From: a virus
Virus record (IMG/VR): IMGVR_UViG_3300028569_000027
Location: 16,046-80,045 of that record
Length of the DNA stretch: 64,000 nt
Strand: one strand, 5' to 3'
The number at the start of each line of letters is the position of its first letter. Position 1 is the stretch's first letter. A program made the translations under genes and the position numbers. Positions 39,393 to 60,260 of the stretch are shown here, piece after piece. The notes under the pieces are model-generated. The model had not been told where the DNA came from. It did not search any database and worked only from the letters and a program-made list of their open reading frames with translations.

Positions 39393-39632
39393 ATGGCATT
39401 AGCCCCACCTGTTCTACAACAACAAATTCAAGCGGCCTTTTTAAAGGCATTTAATAACAAGACAGCTACACCGGAAGCGTGTGCAGCCCAAGTCGCTGCT
39501 GACCTTACGATTGCAATCGATGCATACATAAAAACCGCACAAGTTCAACCCGGACAATTGGTAGTCGGCTCAGGTGGCGCCATCCCCGGTCCAATGGCCG
39601 GAGCTACTACAACCCCAGGTACATTATTCTAA
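39393..39632 (+). CDS. Small conserved protein upstream of terminase, 79 aa
   Basis: MALAPPVLQQQIQAAFLKAF, then a helix DLTIAIDAYIKTAQ and a Gly/Pro-rich tail. Similar short proteins precede structural or packaging genes in T4-like marine phages. By position it could be the small terminase (gp16-like), but it lacks a visible DNA-binding motif and is shorter than T4 gp16 (164 aa). It ends 1 nt before the terminase gene. Confidence 0.5.
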   Translation: MALAPPVLQQQIQAAFLKAFNNKTATPEACAAQVAADLTIAIDAYIKTAQVQPGQLVVGSGGAIPGPMAGATTTPGTLF

Positions 39633-39633
39633 T

Positions 39634-40470
39634 ATGGCTACACAAGTAAACTATAAGGAAATAATCAAACAGGAATACAAGAAGTGTCTACAAGACCCTG
39701 TGTATTTCATGAAGCGGTATTGTATTATTCAACATCCGCAACGCGGTAAGATACCGTTCAACCTATTCCCATTTCAGGAGAAAACATTAAGTGACTTCTA
39801 TAATTTTGACTATAACATCATATTAAAGTCGAGACAGCTAGGGATATCAACTCTATGTGCTGGATACGCTCTATGGCTTATGATTTTCTTCTCGGATAAA
39901 AACGTAATGGTAATAGCTACAAAGCAAGATACGGCAAAGAATCTGGTAACTAAAGTGCGTGTTATGTGGCAGAATTTACCATCATGGTTAAAGGGCACTG
40001 AACCGGACGAGCATAATAAATTATCTATGCGATTTAAGAATGGTTCGCAAATCAAAGCTGTAACCACATCATCAGATACCGGTCGTTCAGAAGCACTATC
40101 ATTACTTATTGTGGATGAGGCAGCCTTTATTGATAACATTAGAGAAATTTGGGGAGGTTCACAACAAACCTTAGCAACCGGTGGTAAAGCGATTATATTA
40201 TCAACACCTAACGGTACCGGTAACTTTTTCCATGAAACGTGGGAAGATGCTGAGTTAAATCCTAAAACTAGATTTCACCCAATCAAATTACACTGGACTG
40301 TTCATCCGGAACGAAACCAAGCTTGGCGCGATAAACAGGATGAAATTCTAGGGCCTAGATTAGCCGCTCAAGAGTGTGTTTCCGGTAATTCGTCTATATT
40401 TATAGTAGATAATGAAACCGGAATGGAAGAACAATTAACGATTAAACAACTATATGACCGACTTAGCTAA
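39634..40470 (+). CDS. 17-N: Terminase large subunit, N-terminal half plus N-intein (split gp17), 278 aa
   Basis: The ATG at 39634 is used. Residues 1-247 are the gp17 ATPase: Walker A-like KSRQLGIST, Walker B LLIVDEAAFI and coupling motif LSTPNGTG. The reading continues RLAAQE and then Cys248, which begins an N-intein of only 31 residues (CVSGNSSIFI ... LYDRLS) and stops at 40468. The matching C-intein and nuclease half are at 41424. Protein trans-splicing would rebuild a 529-aa terminase, the motor that packages DNA. Confidence 0.85.
   Translation: MATQVNYKEIIKQEYKKCLQDPVYFMKRYCIIQHPQRGKIPFNLFPFQEKTLSDFYNFDYNIILKSRQLGISTLCAGYALWLMIFFSDKNVMVIATKQDTAKNLVTKVRVMWQNLPSWLKGTEPDEHNKLSMRFKNGSQIKAVTTSSDTGRSEALSLLIVDEAAFIDNIREIWGGSQQTLATGGKAIILSTPNGTGNFFHETWEDAELNPKTRFHPIKLHWTVHPERNQAWRDKQDEILGPRLAAQECVSGNSSIFIVDNETGMEEQLTIKQLYDRLS
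40375..40467 (+). other. N-terminal fragment of a split intein (31 aa)
   Basis: Starts at the nucleophilic Cys codon (40375) directly after the extein residues QE and contains only block A (C-V-S-G-N-S-S-I-F-I). Block B is not here but in the C-terminal fragment, so the break is unusually early. The same arrangement is known from the AceL-TerL class of atypically split inteins, which also sits in a terminase. Confidence 0.8.
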
Positions 40471-41434
40471 TGTCCGCATGTTATGTTGTAAAGTGTGTGG
40501 GTATCAAAATAAACAGTTATTTCAACATATCCGGTCAGTTCACAAAATGTCAACGGCTGATTATCGAAAGATGTATGGTTGTGATGAAATTATGCAAATA
40601 GGATTTGCTCCGCCAAAACAGTCTACTGTTAATAAACATAACTCCGCAACCGTTAAATTATCGTATATTAATATTCAAAAACAGTTAGCGAATATTAGTG
40701 CACTATCAGCGAATGATACTCGAGATTTGCTCATACATAACAATTATTATCTAAAATTTTTAGGTAAATCAAAACAAAAATCACTTCGTGTTGAAAATAT
40801 ACAGTTATATAAATCGGTATATGAGAATACAAGAATATTAGATAATTTAGTTAATATACACCCAACTCGAGGATTCACGTATCGAATAAAGTTTATTGTC
40901 GAATATAATTATAACATTGATAAAATACGATGTATATGCGGTAAGTACACATTCTCAACAATGTGTCGTGGTTGCGTGTCAAAAACATCTACCATAGACT
41001 GGTATAAGCGTAAATACCCTGATAGTTATATGACAAAGTATGAACACCGATTAATATCTGACAAGTTATTAGGCTATTCATATTCTAAGGTTAGTCAAAA
41101 ATTATTTAATTCAATATATTATAAATTACGTACTACCATCAATGATGTGATGTACTACGGAGAGTTAAACTCTGAGTGGAAAATATTTCTCACTGACGAT
41201 GAACGACAAATAGCTAACCAATCTATGTATTGTTTAGATTTTAAATATAAAGATAAAAATATTGAATTTGATAGTGACTTCGGGAGGTTTCCTAAAGACT
41301 CTAGATATGTAGCAGTTCGTGATAGTATATTGAAAGCTCGTGGTATGAGCATTTTACGAGTTGACGAGCGTGAATATGTTAATAATCATGATGAAACATT
41401 AAATAAATGCATTAACTTTATAAATGATAATTAA
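40454..41434 (+). CDS. Homing endonuclease with zinc finger and Vsr-like domain, 326 aa
   Basis: The gene occupies the gap between the two terminase halves, overlapping them by 17 and 11 nt. The N-terminus holds a C2H2-like finger (CCKVCGYQNKQLFQHIRSVH). A second Cys group is CICGKYTFSTMCRGC. The C-terminus, FDSDFGRFPKDSRYVAVRDS followed by LKARGMSILRVDE, matches the very-short-patch-repair (Vsr) endonuclease pattern. Vsr-like homing endonucleases placed between split-intein halves are known as fractured genes. The gene looks more AT-rich than the terminase around it. Confidence 0.72.
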   Translation: MTDLANVRMLCCKVCGYQNKQLFQHIRSVHKMSTADYRKMYGCDEIMQIGFAPPKQSTVNKHNSATVKLSYINIQKQLANISALSANDTRDLLIHNNYYLKFLGKSKQKSLRVENIQLYKSVYENTRILDNLVNIHPTRGFTYRIKFIVEYNYNIDKIRCICGKYTFSTMCRGCVSKTSTIDWYKRKYPDSYMTKYEHRLISDKLLGYSYSKVSQKLFNSIYYKLRTTINDVMYYGELNSEWKIFLTDDERQIANQSMYCLDFKYKDKNIEFDSDFGRFPKDSRYVAVRDSILKARGMSILRVDEREYVNNHDETLNKCINFINDN

Positions 41435-41750
41435 GAACACCAAGTATAGCGTATTAACACCATCCGGATATAAGTCATTTGATGGTATAAAATCCACGAA
41501 TGTTACCAGTTCATTAACGTTTATGTATGAAAATGGTACATCAATTTCATGCTCTGAAAATCATAGATTTATAGTAAACTCGACTGAGGTGTATGCTAGT
41601 GATTTACGAACCGGCGATGTCGTTGTGAGTACGTCCGGTGATTTAGAAATTATCGACATTACAAAAAATAGTGACAGCTGTGAATTATTTGATATTGTGG
41701 GAGTTACCGACGGGAATATATTTTTTGTAAACGATATATTAAGTCATAAT
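41424..41750 (+). other. C-terminal fragment of a split intein (109 aa)
   Basis: Ends with the splicing residues H-N at 41745-41750 before a +1 Cys codon at 41751. It carries block B, block F (LFDIVGVTDGNIFFVND) and block G. A 31 + 109 residue division makes a complete mini-intein without an internal endonuclease. Confidence 0.8.
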
Positions 41751-42599
41751 TGTGATACCGACTTCGTGTCATCCGGAGCGACATTGATAGAGGGTGACTT
41801 ATTGAAATGGTATTCGGATACAACAGTTAAAGACCCGGTTGAAATGCGCGGGTTCGATAAAAATATATGGATTTGGGAGTACGCTGACTATACAAAACAG
41901 TATGTGGTATCAGCCGACGTTGCTCGAGGAGATGGGAAGGATTATTCAGCATTTCACGTACTTGATGTTGAAACATTGACGCAGGTTGCTGAATACAAAG
42001 GACAAATAGGTACAACCGAATTCGGGCATATGTTAATAGCAATTGCATCTGAATATAATAATGCATTATTGGTTGTAGAAAATGCTAACGTTGGTTGGGC
42101 GACAATTCAGCCGATAATCGATAACAATTATGAAAATCTATTCTATTCAGCAAATGATTTAACTGTAGTCGACGTGCACGCACAATTGGCTAAGGGATAC
42201 GATTTAAAAGATAAAAATTCAATGAAACCCGGGTTTAGTACAACTACTCGTACGAGGCCACTATTGATTTCTAAGTTAGAAACGGTGATGCGCGAACGCG
42301 TACTTACAATTCGCAGTAAACGGTTAATGTCCGAATTAAATGTATTCATATGGAAAGGTGAACGTGCGGAGGCACAGGCAGGTAAAAATGATGATTTAGT
42401 TATGAGTATGGCAATCGGCTTATGGGTTCGTGACACGACGTTTAAACTACGCCAGCAGGGTTTAGATTTAACTCGTATGACACTAGATAGAATCGGTAAA
42501 TCTCAGCCCATGATAATTAGCACCGGTGCAGCAAAACAAACCGGTTGGTCTATGAACACAGGCAACGGTCAACAGGAAGATTTATCATGGTTACTGTAG
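41424..42599 (+). CDS. 17-C: Terminase large subunit, C-intein plus C-terminal half (split gp17), 391 aa
   Basis: Residues 1-109 are the C-intein, including block B (SENHRF) and the terminal LFDIVG ... FFVNDILSHN before Cys110. From Cys110 (CDTDFVSSGATLIEGDL) the gp17 nuclease domain continues, with acidic residues in SADVARGDGKDYS, LLVVENANVGWA and GKNDDLVMSMAIG. It needs the N-half encoded at 39634. The start is the only ATG compatible with a complete C-intein. Confidence 0.85.
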   Translation: MIIKNTKYSVLTPSGYKSFDGIKSTNVTSSLTFMYENGTSISCSENHRFIVNSTEVYASDLRTGDVVVSTSGDLEIIDITKNSDSCELFDIVGVTDGNIFFVNDILSHNCDTDFVSSGATLIEGDLLKWYSDTTVKDPVEMRGFDKNIWIWEYADYTKQYVVSADVARGDGKDYSAFHVLDVETLTQVAEYKGQIGTTEFGHMLIAIASEYNNALLVVENANVGWATIQPIIDNNYENLFYSANDLTVVDVHAQLAKGYDLKDKNSMKPGFSTTTRTRPLLISKLETVMRERVLTIRSKRLMSELNVFIWKGERAEAQAGKNDDLVMSMAIGLWVRDTTFKLRQQGLDLTRMTLDRIGKSQPMIISTGAAKQTGWSMNTGNGQQEDLSWLL

Positions 42600-42667: not shown

Positions 42668-45600
42668 ATGGCAGAAAAATCATTATATAGTAGATTAAAA
42701 AGAATCTTTAGCAATAACGTTATTGTTCGTAGAATTGGAAAGAACGAATTACGAGTTGTTGATAATGATGCGTTACAGTCATCAGGTAATCTAAATGTAA
42801 GTCGATATATTGACAGATTCACACGGCTACACGGAGTTAAGGCCGGTACGTCTACATATAACAATAACTATAATTACTACAGTGCTAAGACCGAGTTATA
42901 TACCGATTACGAGGTAATGGATATGGACTCTATTATTAATAGTGCATTAGACATTTATGCAGATGAATGCTTATCGGGTGATACTAGGATACCGTTATTG
43001 GATGGTAGCACATCGACCATTAAAGAGTTATATGATAACAATACCACAGATATATGGTTATACGGATTAGATTCTGACGGAACCATGAAACCGACTCGTG
43101 CTTCACATGTAGCATGTAATGGTGTTAAGCCCGTGTATAAATTAACTTTAGAAGATGGTACAGAAATAAAATGTACAGATAATCATATATGGGTTAATTC
43201 GTTTAATAATTTAATAGAAACTAAAGATATTCAAGTCGGGGACGGTATCTACGCGCTACAAACAAAATTAAGCGATTCACCCAAAATGTCAGGCTATTTG
43301 ATGATAGAAAATGGGGATGGGTATGAATACGTACATAGAATTGTTGCTCAAAAAGACCCGATATTATTAGAGCAAAGAAAAACTAAAAACGATTCACCGG
43401 TAATACACCATTCATCATTTAATAAACTTAATAATCGACCAGATAAGCTACAATGGTTAAATTGGGTAGAACATAATAAAGTGCATGCCGATTTTAATAG
43501 ACAAATTTGGTCTGATAAGAGTATTATTCATGAATATAAGGATAAAATACGAGCCGGCCACGCTAAATATTGGACGCAGCAACGTCGAAAAGATGTGTCA
43601 ATACGTCAAAGTGCGTATATGCATAAATTGATGTCGTCATTATCAAAAGAAGATAGAATAGACATATATAGTCATCCCGGCGCGAAAAACGGAATGTATA
43701 AAAACGGCGATAAAGTCTCAGGTAACAAAAATGGTCGATATTTACATACTGCGTTTAGAGCAGACCAACTTAGTATACCCGATTTTCTTCGGTTTGTATT
43801 TGATGAGAAAAATGTTAAAAGTATCGGTGGTAAAACTGCGAATTGTCGCTTGGTAGATTTGTTGTCAGAATACACGAATTTACCCGTACTTGATACTGAG
43901 TGTGCGATTGTAAGTACTAACATATGTACATATCTAAAATGTGATACAATCAAAAAAGCTGGAACGTACTATTTTATACAAAAGAATTCGAGAGCGTTGT
44001 CAGATATTCGAGAGAGATTACTAGTTTCTGATACTAGAAGATTTTCTGCTATATGCTCCCAGTTATCATTAGATAAACATAAAGTATATTCAGCAATTAT
44101 AGGATTGGGATATAAAAATTTAGATGCATTTATCAACACGTCAAATCATAAAGTTATTGGTATTGAATACGTCGGCGAAGAGCTAGTATATGATATTGTA
44201 AATGCTGGGGATAACCATTTATTTGCAATTGAATGTAATGATGGGTCAAAATTGTTTACGCATAATTGCGTTATGAAAGATGAATTCGGTCAGGTATTAA
44301 CGATAAAATCTGACGATGAACGTATTAGAAAAATTCTAGATAACTTATTCTTTGATATTCTAAATGTCGACTTTAATTTATGGCCATGGGTTAGAAATAT
44401 GTGTAAATACGGTGATTTCTACCTTAAATTAGATATACAAGAAACCATTGGTATAGTTAACGTCGTACCAATGTCTTCATATGAAATGGTTCGCGAAGAA
44501 GGTTCCGACCCGAATAACCCATATCATGTACAGTTCTCTAATATGAACTATAAGAATATTAAATGGGAAAATTTCGAGGTAGCCCATTTTAGAATGTTAT
44601 CGGATTCAAACTTTTTACCATATGGCAAATCAATGCTAGAGGGTGCTAGAAAAGTATGGAAACAATTAACTCTTATGGAGGATGCGATGCTTATCCATCG
44701 TATAATGAGAGCGCCTGAAAGACGTGTATTCAATATTGATATCGGTAATATACCGCCTAATGAAGTTGATGGGTATATGCAAAAGGTAATTAATCAAATG
44801 AAAAAAGTACCTTTCGTTGATGAGAGAACCGGTGATTACAATTTAAAGTTTAACCTACAAAACATGTTGGAAGATTACTATCTTCCTAAACGTGGACAAG
44901 CTTCTGGTACATCGATTGAATCATTACCGGGTATGGAATTTACTGGTATTACCGATATCGAATATCTTCGTAATAGAATGATGGCCGGACTTAAAGTACC
45001 AAAATCGTTCCTAGGATATGAAGAAGGTGTATCAGGTAAAGCTACATTAGCTGCACAGGATGTTAGATTTGCGAGAACAATTGAAAGAATTCAACGGATT
45101 ATTATTTCCGAATTAACCAAGATAGCAATTGTGCATTTATATTCACAAGGATTCGAAGGAATTGATATGGTGAATTTTGAAATCACTATGACGTCACCAT
45201 CTGCTATATACGAACAGGAAAAGATTGCTCTATGGACGTCTAAGACTGATTTAGCTAAATCTATAGCTGATGGCAAATTAATGCCGAAAGAGTGGGTGTA
45301 CGAAAATATATGGGATTTCACAGATGAACAAATCGAGAAAATTCAAGCTGGTAATATTGAAGATGCTAAACAAGCATTTAGAATGACTTCAATTGAAGAG
45401 AATGGCGAAGACCCGGCTAATCCTGTTGGAGCCGGTGCCGAAGATGATGCCGCAGCAGAAGATGGTGGCGATGAAGCCGCACCTGCCGCGGATGATAAGG
45501 AATCACCAGCTGTTGACAATCCATTTAAAGAAGAAGGTGTTGAAGTACCAAAAGGTGGTTGGCCTGGAGCAGGTCGTCCGAAGGAACCAAAAAAATATGG

Positions 45601-45814
45601 TACCAACCGTTCTATTAATGATAGAGACCCGTTAGGTCGTGAAGCGTGGCATAATGCGTCTAAAGAAAACAGACGCGATAAGTCTCGTGTAGAAGGTATT
45701 ATGAAATCGTATAATCTTAAGCCACGCAAGAAAATCACAACACCATTAATCACTGAAACGATTAAGTCCGGTTCATTAATGGATGAAAATTCCTTGTTAG
45801 ATAGTGAAATGTAG
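42668..45814 (+). CDS. 20: Portal protein, T4 gp20-like, interrupted by an in-frame intein, 1048 aa precursor
   Basis: Extein residues 1-100 (SRYIDRFTRLHG, YTDYEVMDMDSIINSALDIY) and 534-1048 (RKILDNLFFDILNVDFNLWP, FLPYGKSMLEGARKVWKQLT, MAGLKVPKSFLGYEEGVSGK) are clear gp20 sequences. Removal of the 433-aa intein (residues 101-533) leaves a 615-aa portal. The C-terminus is extended by an Ala/Asp/Glu-rich stretch. The portal dodecamer forms the DNA entry ring bound by terminase. Confidence 0.9.
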   Translation: MAEKSLYSRLKRIFSNNVIVRRIGKNELRVVDNDALQSSGNLNVSRYIDRFTRLHGVKAGTSTYNNNYNYYSAKTELYTDYEVMDMDSIINSALDIYADECLSGDTRIPLLDGSTSTIKELYDNNTTDIWLYGLDSDGTMKPTRASHVACNGVKPVYKLTLEDGTEIKCTDNHIWVNSFNNLIETKDIQVGDGIYALQTKLSDSPKMSGYLMIENGDGYEYVHRIVAQKDPILLEQRKTKNDSPVIHHSSFNKLNNRPDKLQWLNWVEHNKVHADFNRQIWSDKSIIHEYKDKIRAGHAKYWTQQRRKDVSIRQSAYMHKLMSSLSKEDRIDIYSHPGAKNGMYKNGDKVSGNKNGRYLHTAFRADQLSIPDFLRFVFDEKNVKSIGGKTANCRLVDLLSEYTNLPVLDTECAIVSTNICTYLKCDTIKKAGTYYFIQKNSRALSDIRERLLVSDTRRFSAICSQLSLDKHKVYSAIIGLGYKNLDAFINTSNHKVIGIEYVGEELVYDIVNAGDNHLFAIECNDGSKLFTHNCVMKDEFGQVLTIKSDDERIRKILDNLFFDILNVDFNLWPWVRNMCKYGDFYLKLDIQETIGIVNVVPMSSYEMVREEGSDPNNPYHVQFSNMNYKNIKWENFEVAHFRMLSDSNFLPYGKSMLEGARKVWKQLTLMEDAMLIHRIMRAPERRVFNIDIGNIPPNEVDGYMQKVINQMKKVPFVDERTGDYNLKFNLQNMLEDYYLPKRGQASGTSIESLPGMEFTGITDIEYLRNRMMAGLKVPKSFLGYEEGVSGKATLAAQDVRFARTIERIQRIIISELTKIAIVHLYSQGFEGIDMVNFEITMTSPSAIYEQEKIALWTSKTDLAKSIADGKLMPKEWVYENIWDFTDEQIEKIQAGNIEDAKQAFRMTSIEENGEDPANPVGAGAEDDAAAEDGGDEAAPAADDKESPAVDNPFKEEGVEVPKGGWPGAGRPKEPKKYGTNRSINDRDPLGREAWHNASKENRRDKSRVEGIMKSYNLKPRKKITTPLITETIKSGSLMDENSLLDSEM
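42968..44266 (+). other. Intein with an HNH homing endonuclease domain (433 aa)
   Basis: Begins at Cys101 (CLSGDTRIPLLDGS, block A), has block B (CTDNHIW) and ends FTHN before the +1 Cys534. In the middle, residues from His247 (HHSSFNKLNNRPDKLQWLNW, then VEHNKVH) are an HNH-type nuclease motif. The block KNGMYKNGDKVSGNKNGRYL resembles the NUMOD DNA-binding motifs of homing enzymes. Splicing residues look intact. Confidence 0.87.
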
Positions 45815-50825: not shown

Positions 50826-52487
50826 ATGAAAAACGTTAAATCACTCTTAACCAACACTGACTCGACATACCGTCAGCAATTGAGCGAGACCAAAGGTCTT
50901 GTTACAAAATGGGAAGATACCGGTCTATTAGAAGGCTTGACAGCTGAATATGACCGTCATGGTATGGCAATTATGCTTGAGAACCAAGCTAAACAATTAG
51001 TTCAAGAAGCGAATGCAACAGGAACTGGTGGAAACTCTGAACAATGGGCTGGCGTAGCTCTTCCATTGGTAAGACGTATCTTTGCTGAAATTTCTGCAAA
51101 AGAGTTCGTTAGTGTACAACCGATGAATTTACCTTCCGGCCTTGTATTCTACCTTGACTTTAAATTTGGAACAGCAGTAGCTGGTTTTAATACAACCAAT
51201 ACTAGCAATGACCCTACTAAAGCTGGTTACCAAAACAACTCTATCTTTGGTGTTACTCAAGACGCTAACGTAGACGCCTCTAAAGGTCTTTACGGAGCAG
51301 GTCGTTTCGGGTATTCATCTAACGATACAGTAGCTATCGATATCGGTGTATCCGGTTCATACACACCATCGTCCGCTGTATTCGCAAACGTGACTGCCGC
51401 GAACCAAACAACAGATATTAACTTTGATTCTAAATTCTCTGCCTCGTTTACCGCGGGACACATTCAGAAAATCACTGTTTCTACCGCGTCATTCACTAAT
51501 CCAGACCTTAAAGGTGTTCGTGCATTTGTAATCAGCGGCTCAGGTATTGTTACTACGTTCCCTCAGTTTACCAGTTATAACTCGACAGCGGAAACAATTT
51601 CGTTTATCGTATCCGGTTCTGCATCGACTGCAGCATTGTATACCGCAGGCGTTACTTACTTCAAGCAACCGACTGCAACTGGCCGTGGTGATTTTGAAGA
51701 CCAAAGCTCTGGTACTAGTACTACAGACTTAGTGATTCCTGAAATCAACGTAGAATTGAGAAGTGATACAATCACTGCTAAGACTAAAAAGTTAAAAGCT
51801 ATCTGGACACCAGAGTTTGCTCAAGACTTGAACGCTTATCACTCAATTGACGCTGAAGCGGAGTTGACTTCGATGTTATCTGAGTATGTATCTATGGAAA
51901 TCGACCTTGAAATCCTTGATATGTTGATTCAAAACGCTGTAACAACAGAATATTGGTCAACACAAGTAGGTGAGTACTGGAACGGTTCCGGATTTACTTC
52001 GGATTCAGCAACCAATGCAGCATCTGCATACAACCAAGGACAATGGTTCCAAACATTAGGAACTAAAATCCAAAAGGTTTCTAACAAAATTCACCAAAAG
52101 ACAATGCGTGGTGGTGCGAACTTCTTAGTATGTTCTCCAGACGTAGCTACTATCCTTGAATCTATTCCAGGATATGCAGCAGACACTAATGGTGATAAAT
52201 CACAATTTGCAATGGGTGTACAAAAGACCGGTTTGTTAAATAGCCGTTTCACTGTATACAAGAACCCATACATGTTGGAAAACACAATCCTATTGGGATA
52301 CCGTGGTGCTCAGTTCCTTGAAACAGGTGCTGTATACGCCCCATATATTCCGTTGATTATGACTCCGCTTGTTTATGACCCGACTAACTTTACCCCTCGT
52401 AAGGGAGTTATGACGCGTTATGCGAAAAAGGTTGTGAGACCAGAATTTTATGGTAGAATCTACGTTAAGGGTTTGACAGCACTTTAA
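50826..52487 (+). CDS. 23: Major capsid protein, T4 gp23-like, 553 aa
   Basis: The conserved gp23 block GVALPLVRRIFAEISAKEFV, then QPMNLPSGLVFYLDFKFG, is at residues about 76-115, and the C-terminus KKVVRPEFYGRIYVKG is also typical. The N-terminal 61 residues end LVQE before ANATG, a candidate gp21 cleavage site corresponding to the T4 gp23 propeptide. Followed by an intrinsic terminator. Confidence 0.93.
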   Translation: MKNVKSLLTNTDSTYRQQLSETKGLVTKWEDTGLLEGLTAEYDRHGMAIMLENQAKQLVQEANATGTGGNSEQWAGVALPLVRRIFAEISAKEFVSVQPMNLPSGLVFYLDFKFGTAVAGFNTTNTSNDPTKAGYQNNSIFGVTQDANVDASKGLYGAGRFGYSSNDTVAIDIGVSGSYTPSSAVFANVTAANQTTDINFDSKFSASFTAGHIQKITVSTASFTNPDLKGVRAFVISGSGIVTTFPQFTSYNSTAETISFIVSGSASTAALYTAGVTYFKQPTATGRGDFEDQSSGTSTTDLVIPEINVELRSDTITAKTKKLKAIWTPEFAQDLNAYHSIDAEAELTSMLSEYVSMEIDLEILDMLIQNAVTTEYWSTQVGEYWNGSGFTSDSATNAASAYNQGQWFQTLGTKIQKVSNKIHQKTMRGGANFLVCSPDVATILESIPGYAADTNGDKSQFAMGVQKTGLLNSRFTVYKNPYMLENTILLGYRGAQFLETGAVYAPYIPLIMTPLVYDPTNFTPRKGVMTRYAKKVVRPEFYGRIYVKGLTAL

Positions 52488-52516: not shown

Positions 52517-52543
52517 GAAAGGCCCTCAAAAGGGGCCTTTCTT
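52517..52543 (+). terminator. Intrinsic terminator after the capsid gene
   Basis: GAAAGGCCC (52517-52525) and GGGCCTTTC (52533-52541) form a perfect 9-bp stem with a 7-nt loop, followed by TTC. The T-run is short, but the stem is very stable. Confidence 0.75.
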
Positions 52544-52602
52544 CATGTACGGTCTCTAGAAATTAATTCCTAGTAACTATAGATATTATGAATAAAATTT
52601 CA

Positions 52603-52615: not shown

Positions 52616-54367
52616 ATGAAAGAATATTTAAAGAAATGTAGTTACTGCAATTACAAATGGAATGGTGGACACGATAGAAATAAACATTTAAAATCTGCCC
52701 ATAATAAAGCGTTTTCGGATTACATTATAGAATTTGTATATAATGGTATACAACCGAAATGCAAGTGCGGCTGTGGTCATGATATGAAATTTAAGAATTT
52801 CGCAGAAGGTCCATGGTTTAACGAATACACCAAGAATCACTTCCCACATCAGAAACATACTTTAGCCACTAGAGCAAAAATACGAACGGGTGTAGTAACG
52901 ACCTTTCAGAAAAAGTATGGGGTAGATAATGTATTTATTTTAAAATCTGTTCAACAGAAATCAGCAGCGACTAAATTAGAAAGGTATGGTAATTCAAATT
53001 ATAATAATCAATCTAAACATTCGCAGACATTACTGGATACCTACGGGGTATCGAATAGTCGGTATTTAGTTAAAAATGTTAAGACATCAAAAATTGAAAA
53101 TATCGTAATAGATGCATTATCAAGATTACACCCGGAGCTGGAATCTAGACCCATAATTAATAGTAAACAATTTGATTTTAAGATTGGTAATGAAATTTTT
53201 GAGATAGATGGTAGATATTATCACCCCAGTTCTATAACGAATTGTACAATCACGCAGCTGAATAATATTATTAATGATGCCGCAAAAGTTGCGATAATTA
53301 AATTATTACCGGAATTCAAATTACATAAAATTCGCGCGGAGCAAATAGACAAAAATAATATTAGTATCGATTCGATATTATCAAAAGAATATATGCCCGA
53401 CCATTCGTTTGATTTTTATACTAAGATAGTTGCCGCGGCTTATTTTTCAAATTATATATCAACAAAAGGTATAGCTAAGCTTAAACGATATATACCGTTG
53501 TTTCTCAAGTTCATTAGAACGTTCCAACCGACCCTACCAGATACTACCACCGATGAAACTTTAGATTATTGTTTAGATATTGCAAAAAATACAAAATTAC
53601 AAATTGATGGTAATACAATATTTCATAATAAACATTCACATATAGGTAATGGTTATCTAAAAAGCCAATTCAAATCATATTGGAAAAGCTCCTATGGTAA
53701 GAATAAATCTCCATACGACGCATGGCTTGATGATGAATTAATGAGTAAGATTATTGAATACAGAATTGGATGCAATGATTCTAATGAAGTATTTGATTTT
53801 TCAATGCACCAAATGATGCGAGGTATATCCGCTCGAAGAATATCCGTTTCGTTTTTTAAGCCGACGTTAGCTGCCGGCATATATGAACATTTCTTAGGTA
53901 ATATTGATTCACCGACAGTATTAGACCCGTGTGCGGGCTTTGGTGGTAGAATGCTGGGCTTTTATAGCAAGTATCCTGCCGGGGTGTATATTGGTATAGA
54001 ACCAAATACGGCGACGTTTAATGAGCTTGTAGAGCTTAATAAGAGCTTGGGTAAAAAGAGCATTTTAATTAATGATTTATACGAAAATGTGGATATTTCA
54101 AAATATGATTATGATTTAGCATTTACATCGATTCCGTATTGGGATACCGAAATATATTCAGAAGACCATACAAAGTATTATGCTGATTATACTGATTGGG
54201 TGAATAAATTTTTAAGTAGAATTAAAAATACACCTAGAATGTTAGTTAATATACCGGATGCGATTAAGCCTGAATTTCTTGATTGTAATGACTTATATTC
54301 TATTCAGATGAATACGTCACATTTCAGTTCCGTTAATTCTAAACAAGAATGGCTCGTTAAGTTATAA
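52616..54367 (+). CDS. Homing-endonuclease-like / DNA methyltransferase fusion, 583 aa
   Basis: The N-terminus has a zinc finger (CSYCNYKWNGGHDRNKHLKS) like that of the terminase-associated homing enzyme, and a Cys/His block (CKCGCGHDM). Repeats of the KYGVDNVF / RYGNSNYNN / TYGVSNSR type follow, then a nuclease-like core (KQFDFKIGNEIFEIDGRYYH, residues about 187-206). Residues about 425-583 form a methyltransferase: VLDPCAGFGGRMLGF (SAM-binding motif I), IGIEPN and TSIPYWD (catalytic motif IV). Endonuclease joined to methylase in one chain suggests cut-and-protect behaviour. Target unknown. Confidence 0.65.
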   Translation: MKEYLKKCSYCNYKWNGGHDRNKHLKSAHNKAFSDYIIEFVYNGIQPKCKCGCGHDMKFKNFAEGPWFNEYTKNHFPHQKHTLATRAKIRTGVVTTFQKKYGVDNVFILKSVQQKSAATKLERYGNSNYNNQSKHSQTLLDTYGVSNSRYLVKNVKTSKIENIVIDALSRLHPELESRPIINSKQFDFKIGNEIFEIDGRYYHPSSITNCTITQLNNIINDAAKVAIIKLLPEFKLHKIRAEQIDKNNISIDSILSKEYMPDHSFDFYTKIVAAAYFSNYISTKGIAKLKRYIPLFLKFIRTFQPTLPDTTTDETLDYCLDIAKNTKLQIDGNTIFHNKHSHIGNGYLKSQFKSYWKSSYGKNKSPYDAWLDDELMSKIIEYRIGCNDSNEVFDFSMHQMMRGISARRISVSFFKPTLAAGIYEHFLGNIDSPTVLDPCAGFGGRMLGFYSKYPAGVYIGIEPNTATFNELVELNKSLGKKSILINDLYENVDISKYDYDLAFTSIPYWDTEIYSEDHTKYYADYTDWVNKFLSRIKNTPRMLVNIPDAIKPEFLDCNDLYSIQMNTSHFSSVNSKQEWLVKL

Positions 54368-54402: not shown

Positions 54403-54681
54403 ATGAAAGTATCAGCATTCAAGAAACTAATAAGAGAAGAAGTTAAAAAAGTGGTTACAGAATTTGATGGAAAGGCCCATGACGCTTCCGTAAGTAAAGA
54501 AACTATATTCGCGGAGTATGATATGTTAGTTAACAAGTTCGGTGATTTGTTAAGTGATGCCTTTGAATTTAATCAAAATATTAAAGGTAAAGTACTTCCG
54601 GCTGAATATAATAAAGTCGCATTAGCTTTAAAGAAAATTCGAGACGGTGTTTATGTATTACAAGATGCTCTACCTAGTTAA
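54403..54681 (+). CDS. Probable capsid cargo protein with targeting-like N-terminus, 92 aa
   Basis: The N-terminal helix FKKLIREEVKKVVTE ends V-V-T-E, closely matching the protein at 48201. After the candidate cleavage site, the remainder (EYDMLVNKFGDLLSDAFEFN; KVALALKKIRDGVYVLQDAL) is a small helical bundle. Likely packaged with the DNA and processed by the gp21-like protease. No family is recognised. Confidence 0.58.
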   Translation: MKVSAFKKLIREEVKKVVTEFDGKAHDASVSKETIFAEYDMLVNKFGDLLSDAFEFNQNIKGKVLPAEYNKVALALKKIRDGVYVLQDALPS

Positions 54682-54741: not shown

Positions 54742-55419
54742 ATGGACCACAACGAAGGTAATACCGGTAATCTAAAAAGAAAACCGAAGGGAGATATTAG
54801 ATTCCACGTCACTCTCAATGATGAGCAAAAGGAAGCAAAACAAATTATTATAGATAATGCGGTAACCGTATTAAAAGGGCAGGCCGGGTCGGGAAAGACC
54901 TTAATAGCTTGTCAGGTTGCCTTAGATTCATTATTTAAGAAAGACGTCGAACGAATTGTTATTTGTCGACCGGCGATATCTAAAGAAGAAATTGGATTCT
55001 TGCCCGGTTCTGCAAACGATAAGCTTCAACCGTATATGCAACCGGTTCTAGACAACTTCTATAAGCTGTATAATAAAGAAAAAGTCGACGCTCTTATTTT
55101 AGATAGAAAGATTGAGATTATACCATTTGCATTTATGCGTGGGCATACATTTACAAATACTTTTATAATAGCAGATGAGGCTCAGAATTTATCTTTTGAC
55201 TTCATGGAGCTAATATTAGGTAGATTAGGTTTAGGTAGTAAATTAGTAATTTGCGGGGATGCTTCACAGATTGACTTAAAGAACAAGAAAGATTCTGGTA
55301 TTCATTACGTTACAGCATTAGAGGCGAGAGTTCCCGGATTCAAGATATTTACTTTAAAGAAGAATCACAGACATCCAATTGTACAATTACTGTTGGACGT
55401 GATTACCGAATTGAAATGA
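54742..55419 (+). CDS. phoH: PhoH-like ATPase, 225 aa
   Basis: Walker A KGQAGSGKT (residues 45-53) and Walker B IIADEAQN (Asp144, Glu145) of PhoH proteins, with CRPAISKEEIGFLPG and KKNHRHPIVQL also typical. PhoH is related to superfamily I helicases and is common in marine phages, linked to RNA metabolism or phosphate stress; the function in phages is unproven. Unlike its neighbours it lacks an L-x-E targeting N-terminus. Overlaps the next start by 4 nt. Confidence 0.85.
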   Translation: MDHNEGNTGNLKRKPKGDIRFHVTLNDEQKEAKQIIIDNAVTVLKGQAGSGKTLIACQVALDSLFKKDVERIVICRPAISKEEIGFLPGSANDKLQPYMQPVLDNFYKLYNKEKVDALILDRKIEIIPFAFMRGHTFTNTFIIADEAQNLSFDFMELILGRLGLGSKLVICGDASQIDLKNKKDSGIHYVTALEARVPGFKIFTLKKNHRHPIVQLLLDVITELK

Positions 55420-59465: not shown

Positions 59466-60260
59466 ATGATAAATTGGAAACAACTATATTATCGGTTATT
59501 ATTAGAAGGTGAGGTATCTATCGATACCACCGGCGAGTATCATCATTCCGTTCCTAGGCATTCTGACGGTGTCGATAGTCGCTTAGTTAAATTATCTCAT
59601 AGAAATCATACATTAGCTCATTATATTAGATTTAGGTGGTTGGGGCATCCGGGTGATAAAGTGGCATATCAAATGATGTCTGGACAGTTATTAAATCCTA
59701 TGCATGACCCGTTTATTCGTGCTAAGGTAATTACTTATAATCAATCTGCAGCCGGCAGACAAAAATCGAGTGATACATTTACAAGATATTATGCGAATCC
59801 TGAAAACCTAGCTCGGCATTCCGAACAACGAAAACAGTTTATAGCTAACATGCCAGATAAGCGTGTAATGACTGCTCATATGAATGACCCGCAAAAGATA
59901 TCGGACTATATTGAAAAACGGGTGGCTACATATAAACAAACTGCAAAAAATAACCCAGAACGATTTGCAAATAATTCAAAGTTGCGTGGTGATATATTGC
60001 GTCGCAACAATCTTTTACGTTCTGATATAGAATTAGCCGATATATACGGCCGCGGTACCGGTGCTAACAATCCTAAGTGGCGCGGCTACGTTATTGTTGA
60101 ACTCGGTAATAACAAACAAATATTTGATAGTTTTCAAGATGCATATCAAAAAATAGGCCTAACATATGGACTGGCTAATAAGTATAAAAATACGAATATA
60201 CCGGTTAAAGCTGGTAGATTAAAGGGTAGTATTATTTCATTAACTAAATTTATTTCATAA
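59466..60260 (+). CDS. HNH-family homing endonuclease-like protein, 264 aa
   Basis: The motif EYHHSVPRHSDG (His26, His27) followed by VKLSHRNHTLAHYIRFRWLG (His45, Asn47, His48) is an HNH-type beta-beta-metal core. The C-terminal GANNPKWRGYVIVEL and IFDSFQDAYQKIGLTYGLAN resemble NUMOD modules of homing enzymes. It separates the gp13- and gp14-like genes. The N-terminus also carries an L-L-L-E sequence before the domain. Confidence 0.72.
   Translation: MINWKQLYYRLLLEGEVSIDTTGEYHHSVPRHSDGVDSRLVKLSHRNHTLAHYIRFRWLGHPGDKVAYQMMSGQLLNPMHDPFIRAKVITYNQSAAGRQKSSDTFTRYYANPENLARHSEQRKQFIANMPDKRVMTAHMNDPQKISDYIEKRVATYKQTAKNNPERFANNSKLRGDILRRNNLLRSDIELADIYGRGTGANNPKWRGYVIVELGNNKQIFDSFQDAYQKIGLTYGLANKYKNTNIPVKAGRLKGSIISLTKFIS

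Follow-up and report, generated by a model that had tools for sequence, protein, structure and literature searches.

Homing genes must spare their own carrier, and the usual means is that insertion disrupts the target or that the target diverges. Such genes are concentrated around capsid, terminase and ribonucleotide reductase genes (PMC10448857), and phage T4 carries a free-standing one, segD, between genes 23 and 24 (PMC2988022). The gene analysed here resembles segD in being free-standing and directly behind a T4-type capsid gene, whereas segD encodes a GIY-YIG nuclease, has the opposite orientation in T4 and lacks a methylase. The EDxHD homing endonucleases (I-Bth0305I, phrog_3339) share its nuclease fold, catalytic residues and finger/DUF7487 arms, and phrog_3339 homing genes likewise stand behind gp23 (in loci L092, L142, L001 and others); the known members, however, have no methylase, and phrog_3339 proteins end in another C-terminal domain. 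We do not claim a Mom-like domain in that C terminus: the profile comparison was collinear, with a probability of only 1.6%.

Type IIG enzymes (BcgI, MmeI, BpuSI) also use one chain for cleavage and methylation, but they contain another nuclease, are bacterial defence genes, read short sites and do not home, and profile searches showed no relation to the fusion. Stand-alone N4/N6 methylases (Vibrio phage 2.058.O, Bacteroides phage DAC16 and phrog_12517) have a homologous methylase domain; they lack a nuclease, lie away from the capsid genes examined and carry SPPY, whereas SIPY is usual in EDxHD fusions. In ShiLan, an HNH gene lies inside a phage methylase gene (PMC11855218), bringing a homing nuclease and a methylase to one locus as here, but that HNH is read in a different frame, as a parasite of the methylase gene, whereas ours is a single in-frame protein. 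The same 2025 paper notes that no strong association of HNH endonucleases with methylases is known so far (PMC11855218). A full-text search of open-access papers returned no account of a nuclease–methylase homing fusion behind a capsid gene, an absence that is no proof. That free-standing homing genes occur next to conserved genes is established; the novelty lies in their regular joining, in frame, to a single family of methylases.

The window is a 64,000-nucleotide stretch of IMG/VR virus record IMGVR_UViG_3300028569_000027. The 80-kb source record holds a single copy of the fusion gene, an exact, ATG-started open reading frame of 583 amino acids directly 3′ of gp23 (Table 1). A preliminary description made from the letters alone had listed a zinc finger, homing-type repeats and the motifs EIDGRYYH, DPCAGFGGR and TSIPYWD, and all are present in this frame, the repeats being of the KYGV type. 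The finger is formed by C8-C11-H24-H29 and is accompanied by a CKCGCG knuckle; in 10 relatives C8 and C49 are invariant and C11 and H29 nearly so, and the relatives' N-terminal region gives zinc-finger Pfam matches. DUF7487 (PF24308) matched the window protein at 7.1e-6, just below the Pfam cut-off (26.5 versus 27 bits), and lies well over it in relatives (best 9e-27, in L007), some of which carry NUMOD3 as a further DNA-binding arm by Pfam. NCBIfam and PDB sequence searches with the window protein gave no useful match and a PADLOC search gave none at all.

Table 1. Features of the fusion gene and its surroundings, in window coordinates
Feature	Position	Strand	Basis
gp23 major capsid gene, conserved neighbour, possible homing target	50826..52487	+	PF07068 3.4e-77
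Hairpin terminator of the capsid gene; insert lies beyond the hairpin	52517..52541	.	like the hairpin after gp23 in empty sites
ACGGTCTCTAGAAATTA element, similar or common to several relatives	52549..52565	+	comparison of upstream regions
Homing endonuclease–DNA methyltransferase fusion gene (predicted)	52616..54367	+	ORF, families, AF2 model pLDDT 81.6, 30 distinct intact proteins
Cys2His2-type finger and CxCGCG knuckle, aa 8-60, presumed DNA-binding	52637..52795	+	conservation, Pfam in relatives
KYGV repeats of DUF7487 type, aa 88-149, presumably the arm with which phage homing endonucleases read DNA	52877..53062	+	Pfam PF24308
EDxHD/Vsr-type nuclease domain (predicted), aa 155-240: E161, D187, E196, D198, H203, D221, K224	53078..53335	+	AF2 model, Foldseek, conservation
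Methyltransferase region (predicted), aa 329-583, order X (FFKP) - I - IV	53600..54364	+	phrog_12517, relatives' PF01555, class I MTase fold
Motif I DPCAGFGGR (SAM binding)	53924..53950	+	D437, P438, G441, G443, R445 invariant 30/30
Motif IV TSIPYWD (catalytic)	54125..54145	+	S505, P507 invariant 30/30; Y508 29/30
Small 92-aa gene between insert and phoH	54403..54681	+	ORF of like size here in phages without the insert
phoH-like gene, conserved right flank	54742..55419	+	PF02562 2e-57; directly after gp23 in most empty relatives

We modelled residues 152-282 with ColabFold/AF2 (pLDDT 83.8) and compared the model with the PDB by Foldseek. The best match was the catalytic domain of the homing endonuclease I-Bth0305I (3r3p, probability 1.00, E 0.019), followed by E. 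coli Vsr (1vsr/1cw0, probability 0.95), the fold of the EDxHD homing family (PMC3943268, PMC6083498). Among relatives, Vsr Pfam matches ranged from 3e-6 to 9e-4, with the core reaching or nearing the cut-off. Across the 30 proteins D187, D198, H203 and D221 are invariant, E161 is kept in 29 and K224 is nearly invariant. On this model the domain belongs to the EDxHD homing family and is expected to cleave DNA. The preliminary description had read the gene as one selfish-looking chain of nuclease and SAM methylase, to be abandoned should domain prediction show the N-terminal part to be no nuclease; prediction instead returned the I-Bth0305I/Vsr fold, with Vsr Pfam matches in the closest relatives.

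The full-length model (pLDDT 81.6) found its best PDB matches among class I methyltransferases. The methylase half matched phrog_12517 at 1.6e-7 and, weakly (0.033), phrog_498, a phage DNA methyltransferase family; with the window protein itself these were the only matches, and no curated DNA N4/N6 methylase profile was passed. Relatives do pass PF01555 (N6_N4_Mtase), and the amino methyltransferase motifs I (DPxxGxG) and IV (S/D/N-x-P-Y/F) are present and almost invariant in the 30 proteins. The C-terminal half is therefore probably an amino-type DNA methyltransferase.

Searching viral sequences with the window protein alone gave no match, and relatives were reached through alignments only. 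One, in the uncultured 484-kb phage LR756508.1, is full-length at 34% identity and also lies downstream of gp23, with one extra homing gene in between. Profile scans of IMG/VR added further relatives (counts here are of the matches listed, some loci being near-duplicates, and some motif readings in single relatives were made by eye), bringing the set to at least 30 distinct intact EDxHD–methylase proteins, the window protein included. The domain fusion is thus no chance joining, since 29 further distinct intact proteins have the same domain order and invariant residues. In L250 and L247, the most useful close pair, dN was 0.045 against dS 0.53 over the first 300 residues (dN/dS ~0.09) and 0.094 against 0.85 over the remainder (dN/dS ~0.11); with dN well below dS in each, both halves are under purifying selection.

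The position beside the capsid gene, computed across loci, is highly regular. Among the 40 further EDxHD–methylase matches listed that have gp23 upstream on a contig of sufficient length, the gap from gp23 to the fusion is 53-373 nt in 38 and 969 and 2694 nt in the other two. In L255 (2469-6613) an intact fusion is not behind gp23; by sequence reading, TnpB-like and tail-tube-like genes flank it. The fusion was found in none of the 80 nearest gp23 relatives listed, which were picked by gp23 similarity only; phoH directly follows gp23 in most of these, and a phrog_3339-type homing gene stands behind gp23 in 3. In L278 (530-5755) the capsid and fusion genes are fragmented and a phrog_3339-type homing gene is inserted, possibly reflecting a decaying locus or sequencing errors.

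Precise empty sites came from a second gp23 lineage, in which many phages leave only ~50-63 nt between gp23 and a Mom-like gene; the Mom-like protein scan that supplied them was of low diversity yet gave clean examples. Two phages (L010 and L011) have this gap filled by the fusion. In L010 the insert runs from just past the terminator of gp23 to the Mom-like gene's stop codon, and the capsid end and terminator closely match those in empty relatives. Because the end of gp23 is almost unchanged, a target there would still be open to cutting in the carrier unless something protected it. GIY-YIG homing-type genes fill the same gap in L184, L185, L195, L222, L230 and others.

These comparisons also reassign the hairpin that the preliminary description had taken as the fusion gene's own terminator: it is the capsid gene's, and we rejected it as part of the element, phages without the insert carrying the same kind after gp23. 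A ACGGTCTCTAGGAAATTA-like element follows the capsid terminator, ahead of the fusion gene, in the window and in L011 (3866), L248, L250, L252, L256, L260 and L263; of the 28 distinct upstream regions, a minority have ACGGTCTCTAG exactly or in nearly identical form.

Divergence of element and host gene is discordant in both directions. Capsid identity between L250 and L247 is 68%, against 91% for the nuclease half and 85% for the methylase half of the fusion, so the element, more alike than the capsid, has recently been transferred horizontally. Between L268 and L250 the capsids agree at 87%, whereas the nuclease halves share only 28% and the methylase halves 60%, showing that the site has been occupied by different elements and that the nuclease half was swapped apart from the methylase. 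With its empty sites, the other homing genes at the site and this discordance, the fusion gene behaves, by sequence comparison, as a mobile element: it is present or absent at a fixed site with intact flanks and spreads independently of the host gene, as free-standing homing genes do. The same three observations support the homing part of the compact homing or restriction-modification system proposed in the preliminary description. Its restriction-modification side, protection of the element's own DNA, is plausible, and gains from recurrent fusion with different nuclease families.

That recurrence is broad. LAGLIDADG domains (Pfam up to 1.7e-38) are the nuclease partner of this methylase family in LR745208.1 and other phages, and 15 of the 16 distinct LAGLIDADG–methylase genes (4 of the 16 typed through our own profile only) lie directly behind an unrelated major capsid family, phrog_2522. 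A single HNH case, L019, joins the methylase family to HNH_3 and NUMOD4. Five further capsid-linked methylase genes (L321, L326, L329, L360 and L373) carry zinc ribbons and a PFD..VKTA domain; by eye only, this domain resembles PD-(D/E)xK and is possibly a fourth nuclease type. Across the 67 informative loci of the second capsid family, picked by capsid similarity alone, a methylase-bearing gene lies 54-196 nt behind the capsid gene in 12 and LAGLIDADG without a methylase follows it in 14. Such recurrent pairing of cutter and methylase beside the capsid genes of many unrelated phages suggests selfish cutters that bring their own protection. In L026 (1325-3527) and L035 (1424-3498) a LAGLIDADG gene, possibly within an intron, interrupts the capsid gene, and a LAGLIDADG–methylase gene comes next, giving two homing genes per capsid locus.

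Stand-alone members make up 56 of the 80 rows of the methylase tree set, and such members also occur in Vibrio and Bacteroides phages. None of the stand-alone loci adjoins a capsid gene of either of the two families checked. Two stand-alone methylases, in L038 (4722-6517) and L081 (4180-5825), adjoin Mom-like DNA modification genes. In the tree, EDxHD fusions form one clade (100/99) with the HNH fusion as neighbour (99/93), and LAGLIDADG fusions fall in several places, the starred branches forcing at least 2 changes; because deep nodes are weak and some branches long, the number of fusion events cannot safely be fixed, and we do not assume that all fused genes arose once.

We read the fusion, with a probability of roughly 55%, as a free-standing (intronless) homing gene whose methylase half protects carrier DNA from its own nuclease. 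The N-terminal half would read DNA with its zinc finger and DUF7487 repeats and cut it with the EDxHD/Vsr-type domain; a co-infecting phage without the gene would be cut at or near the capsid locus, and repair from the carrier copy would spread the gene. The C-terminal methylase would mark the same target, or carrier DNA more widely, leaving the methylated carrier uncut even though the insertion has not altered its capsid region. What we infer here is that the protein cleaves and methylates DNA, which target it acts on, and that methylation blocks cleavage. Methylation is held to matter because this one family of methylases recurs in fusions with LAGLIDADG as well as HNH_3, the LAGLIDADG fusions not forming a single clade. 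Several points pull the other way. The window's own methylase half matches DNA-methylase families only weakly. The target could span the insertion point, and insertion alone would then protect the carrier; and a C-terminal recognition domain was not seen, so that the sharing of DNA reading by both halves, for which the N-terminal arms could serve, is a guess. Nor is the methylase essential for homing, because at the second site 14 LAGLIDADG genes lack it against 12 that have it.

The main competitor, though an unlikely one, keeps the nuclease as the source of mobility and makes the methylase a passenger that helps the phage, for instance by blocking host restriction, and leaves the element's own cutting unaffected. 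The abundance of stand-alone family methylases, the two beside Mom-like modification genes and the independent swapping of the nuclease and methylase halves are what this explanation would lead one to expect. It has more difficulty with the fusion itself: a passenger need not be joined in frame, yet in-frame joining arose with several nuclease families, and nearly all fused genes adjoin one of the two capsid types whereas the stand-alone loci adjoin neither. If instead the methylase acted on RNA (tRNA or rRNA, for example), the best whole-model PDB matches would fit, since these class I methyltransferases include the tRNA m2G10 enzyme and small-molecule enzymes; family members nevertheless match the DNA methylase profile PF01555, and in the fusions the partner is in every case a nuclease that reads DNA or a protein that binds it, making an RNA substrate the least credible of the alternatives.

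Restriction-modification in the Type IIG style, with a short, frequent site, a methylated phage genome, destruction of unmodified host or superinfecting DNA and little or no homing, would account for a nuclease and methylase in one chain with the motif order X-I-IV, as in Type IIG enzymes (PMC4081073). We consider it improbable: the nuclease is of a homing family with long DNA-reading arms, its constant location by a single conserved gene, with empty sites and further homing genes at that location, is typical of homing, and neither NCBIfam and PADLOC restriction models nor PDB sequences of known Type IIG or defence proteins were matched. Phages elsewhere reuse homing-type DNA-reading arms as regulators (PMC10448857), and the nuclease fold might by analogy merely direct the methylase, so that the capsid region is marked or regulated and stays uncut; conservation of the catalytic residues (D187, D198, H203 and D221 in 30/30, E161 in 29/30) and purifying selection make this very improbable.

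More tentatively, and at somewhat less than even odds, the self-protecting homing gene that we favour may exemplify a widespread self-immunising class, in which several unrelated nuclease families (EDxHD, LAGLIDADG, HNH and perhaps a fourth) repeatedly captured the same methylase family in frame behind capsid genes, the methylase replacing a disrupted or diverged target. If so, such an element can target conserved sequence that must stay unaltered in its carrier. Carrying its own methylase would solve the self-protection problem in another way and would link homing elements with restriction-modification systems, two subjects that tend to be considered separately. Unrelated nucleases behind unrelated capsid genes offer many natural replicates for testing the idea, and a potential use lies in rare-cutting nucleases supplied with a matched protecting methylase.

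Other genes in the window also carry homing-type features. The large terminase gene (39574-42599) looks interrupted by an intein-like insert, within which a homing-type gene with DUF559/ROS_MUCR matches is nested (40454-41434), and a 1048-aa portal-like protein (42668-45814) has an apparent intein with a homing-type region. Between structural genes, a 264-aa protein (59466-60260) with no significant Pfam match reads like a free-standing HNH-type endonuclease. Near the window's start (251-2266) lies a cluster of 16 tRNA genes.
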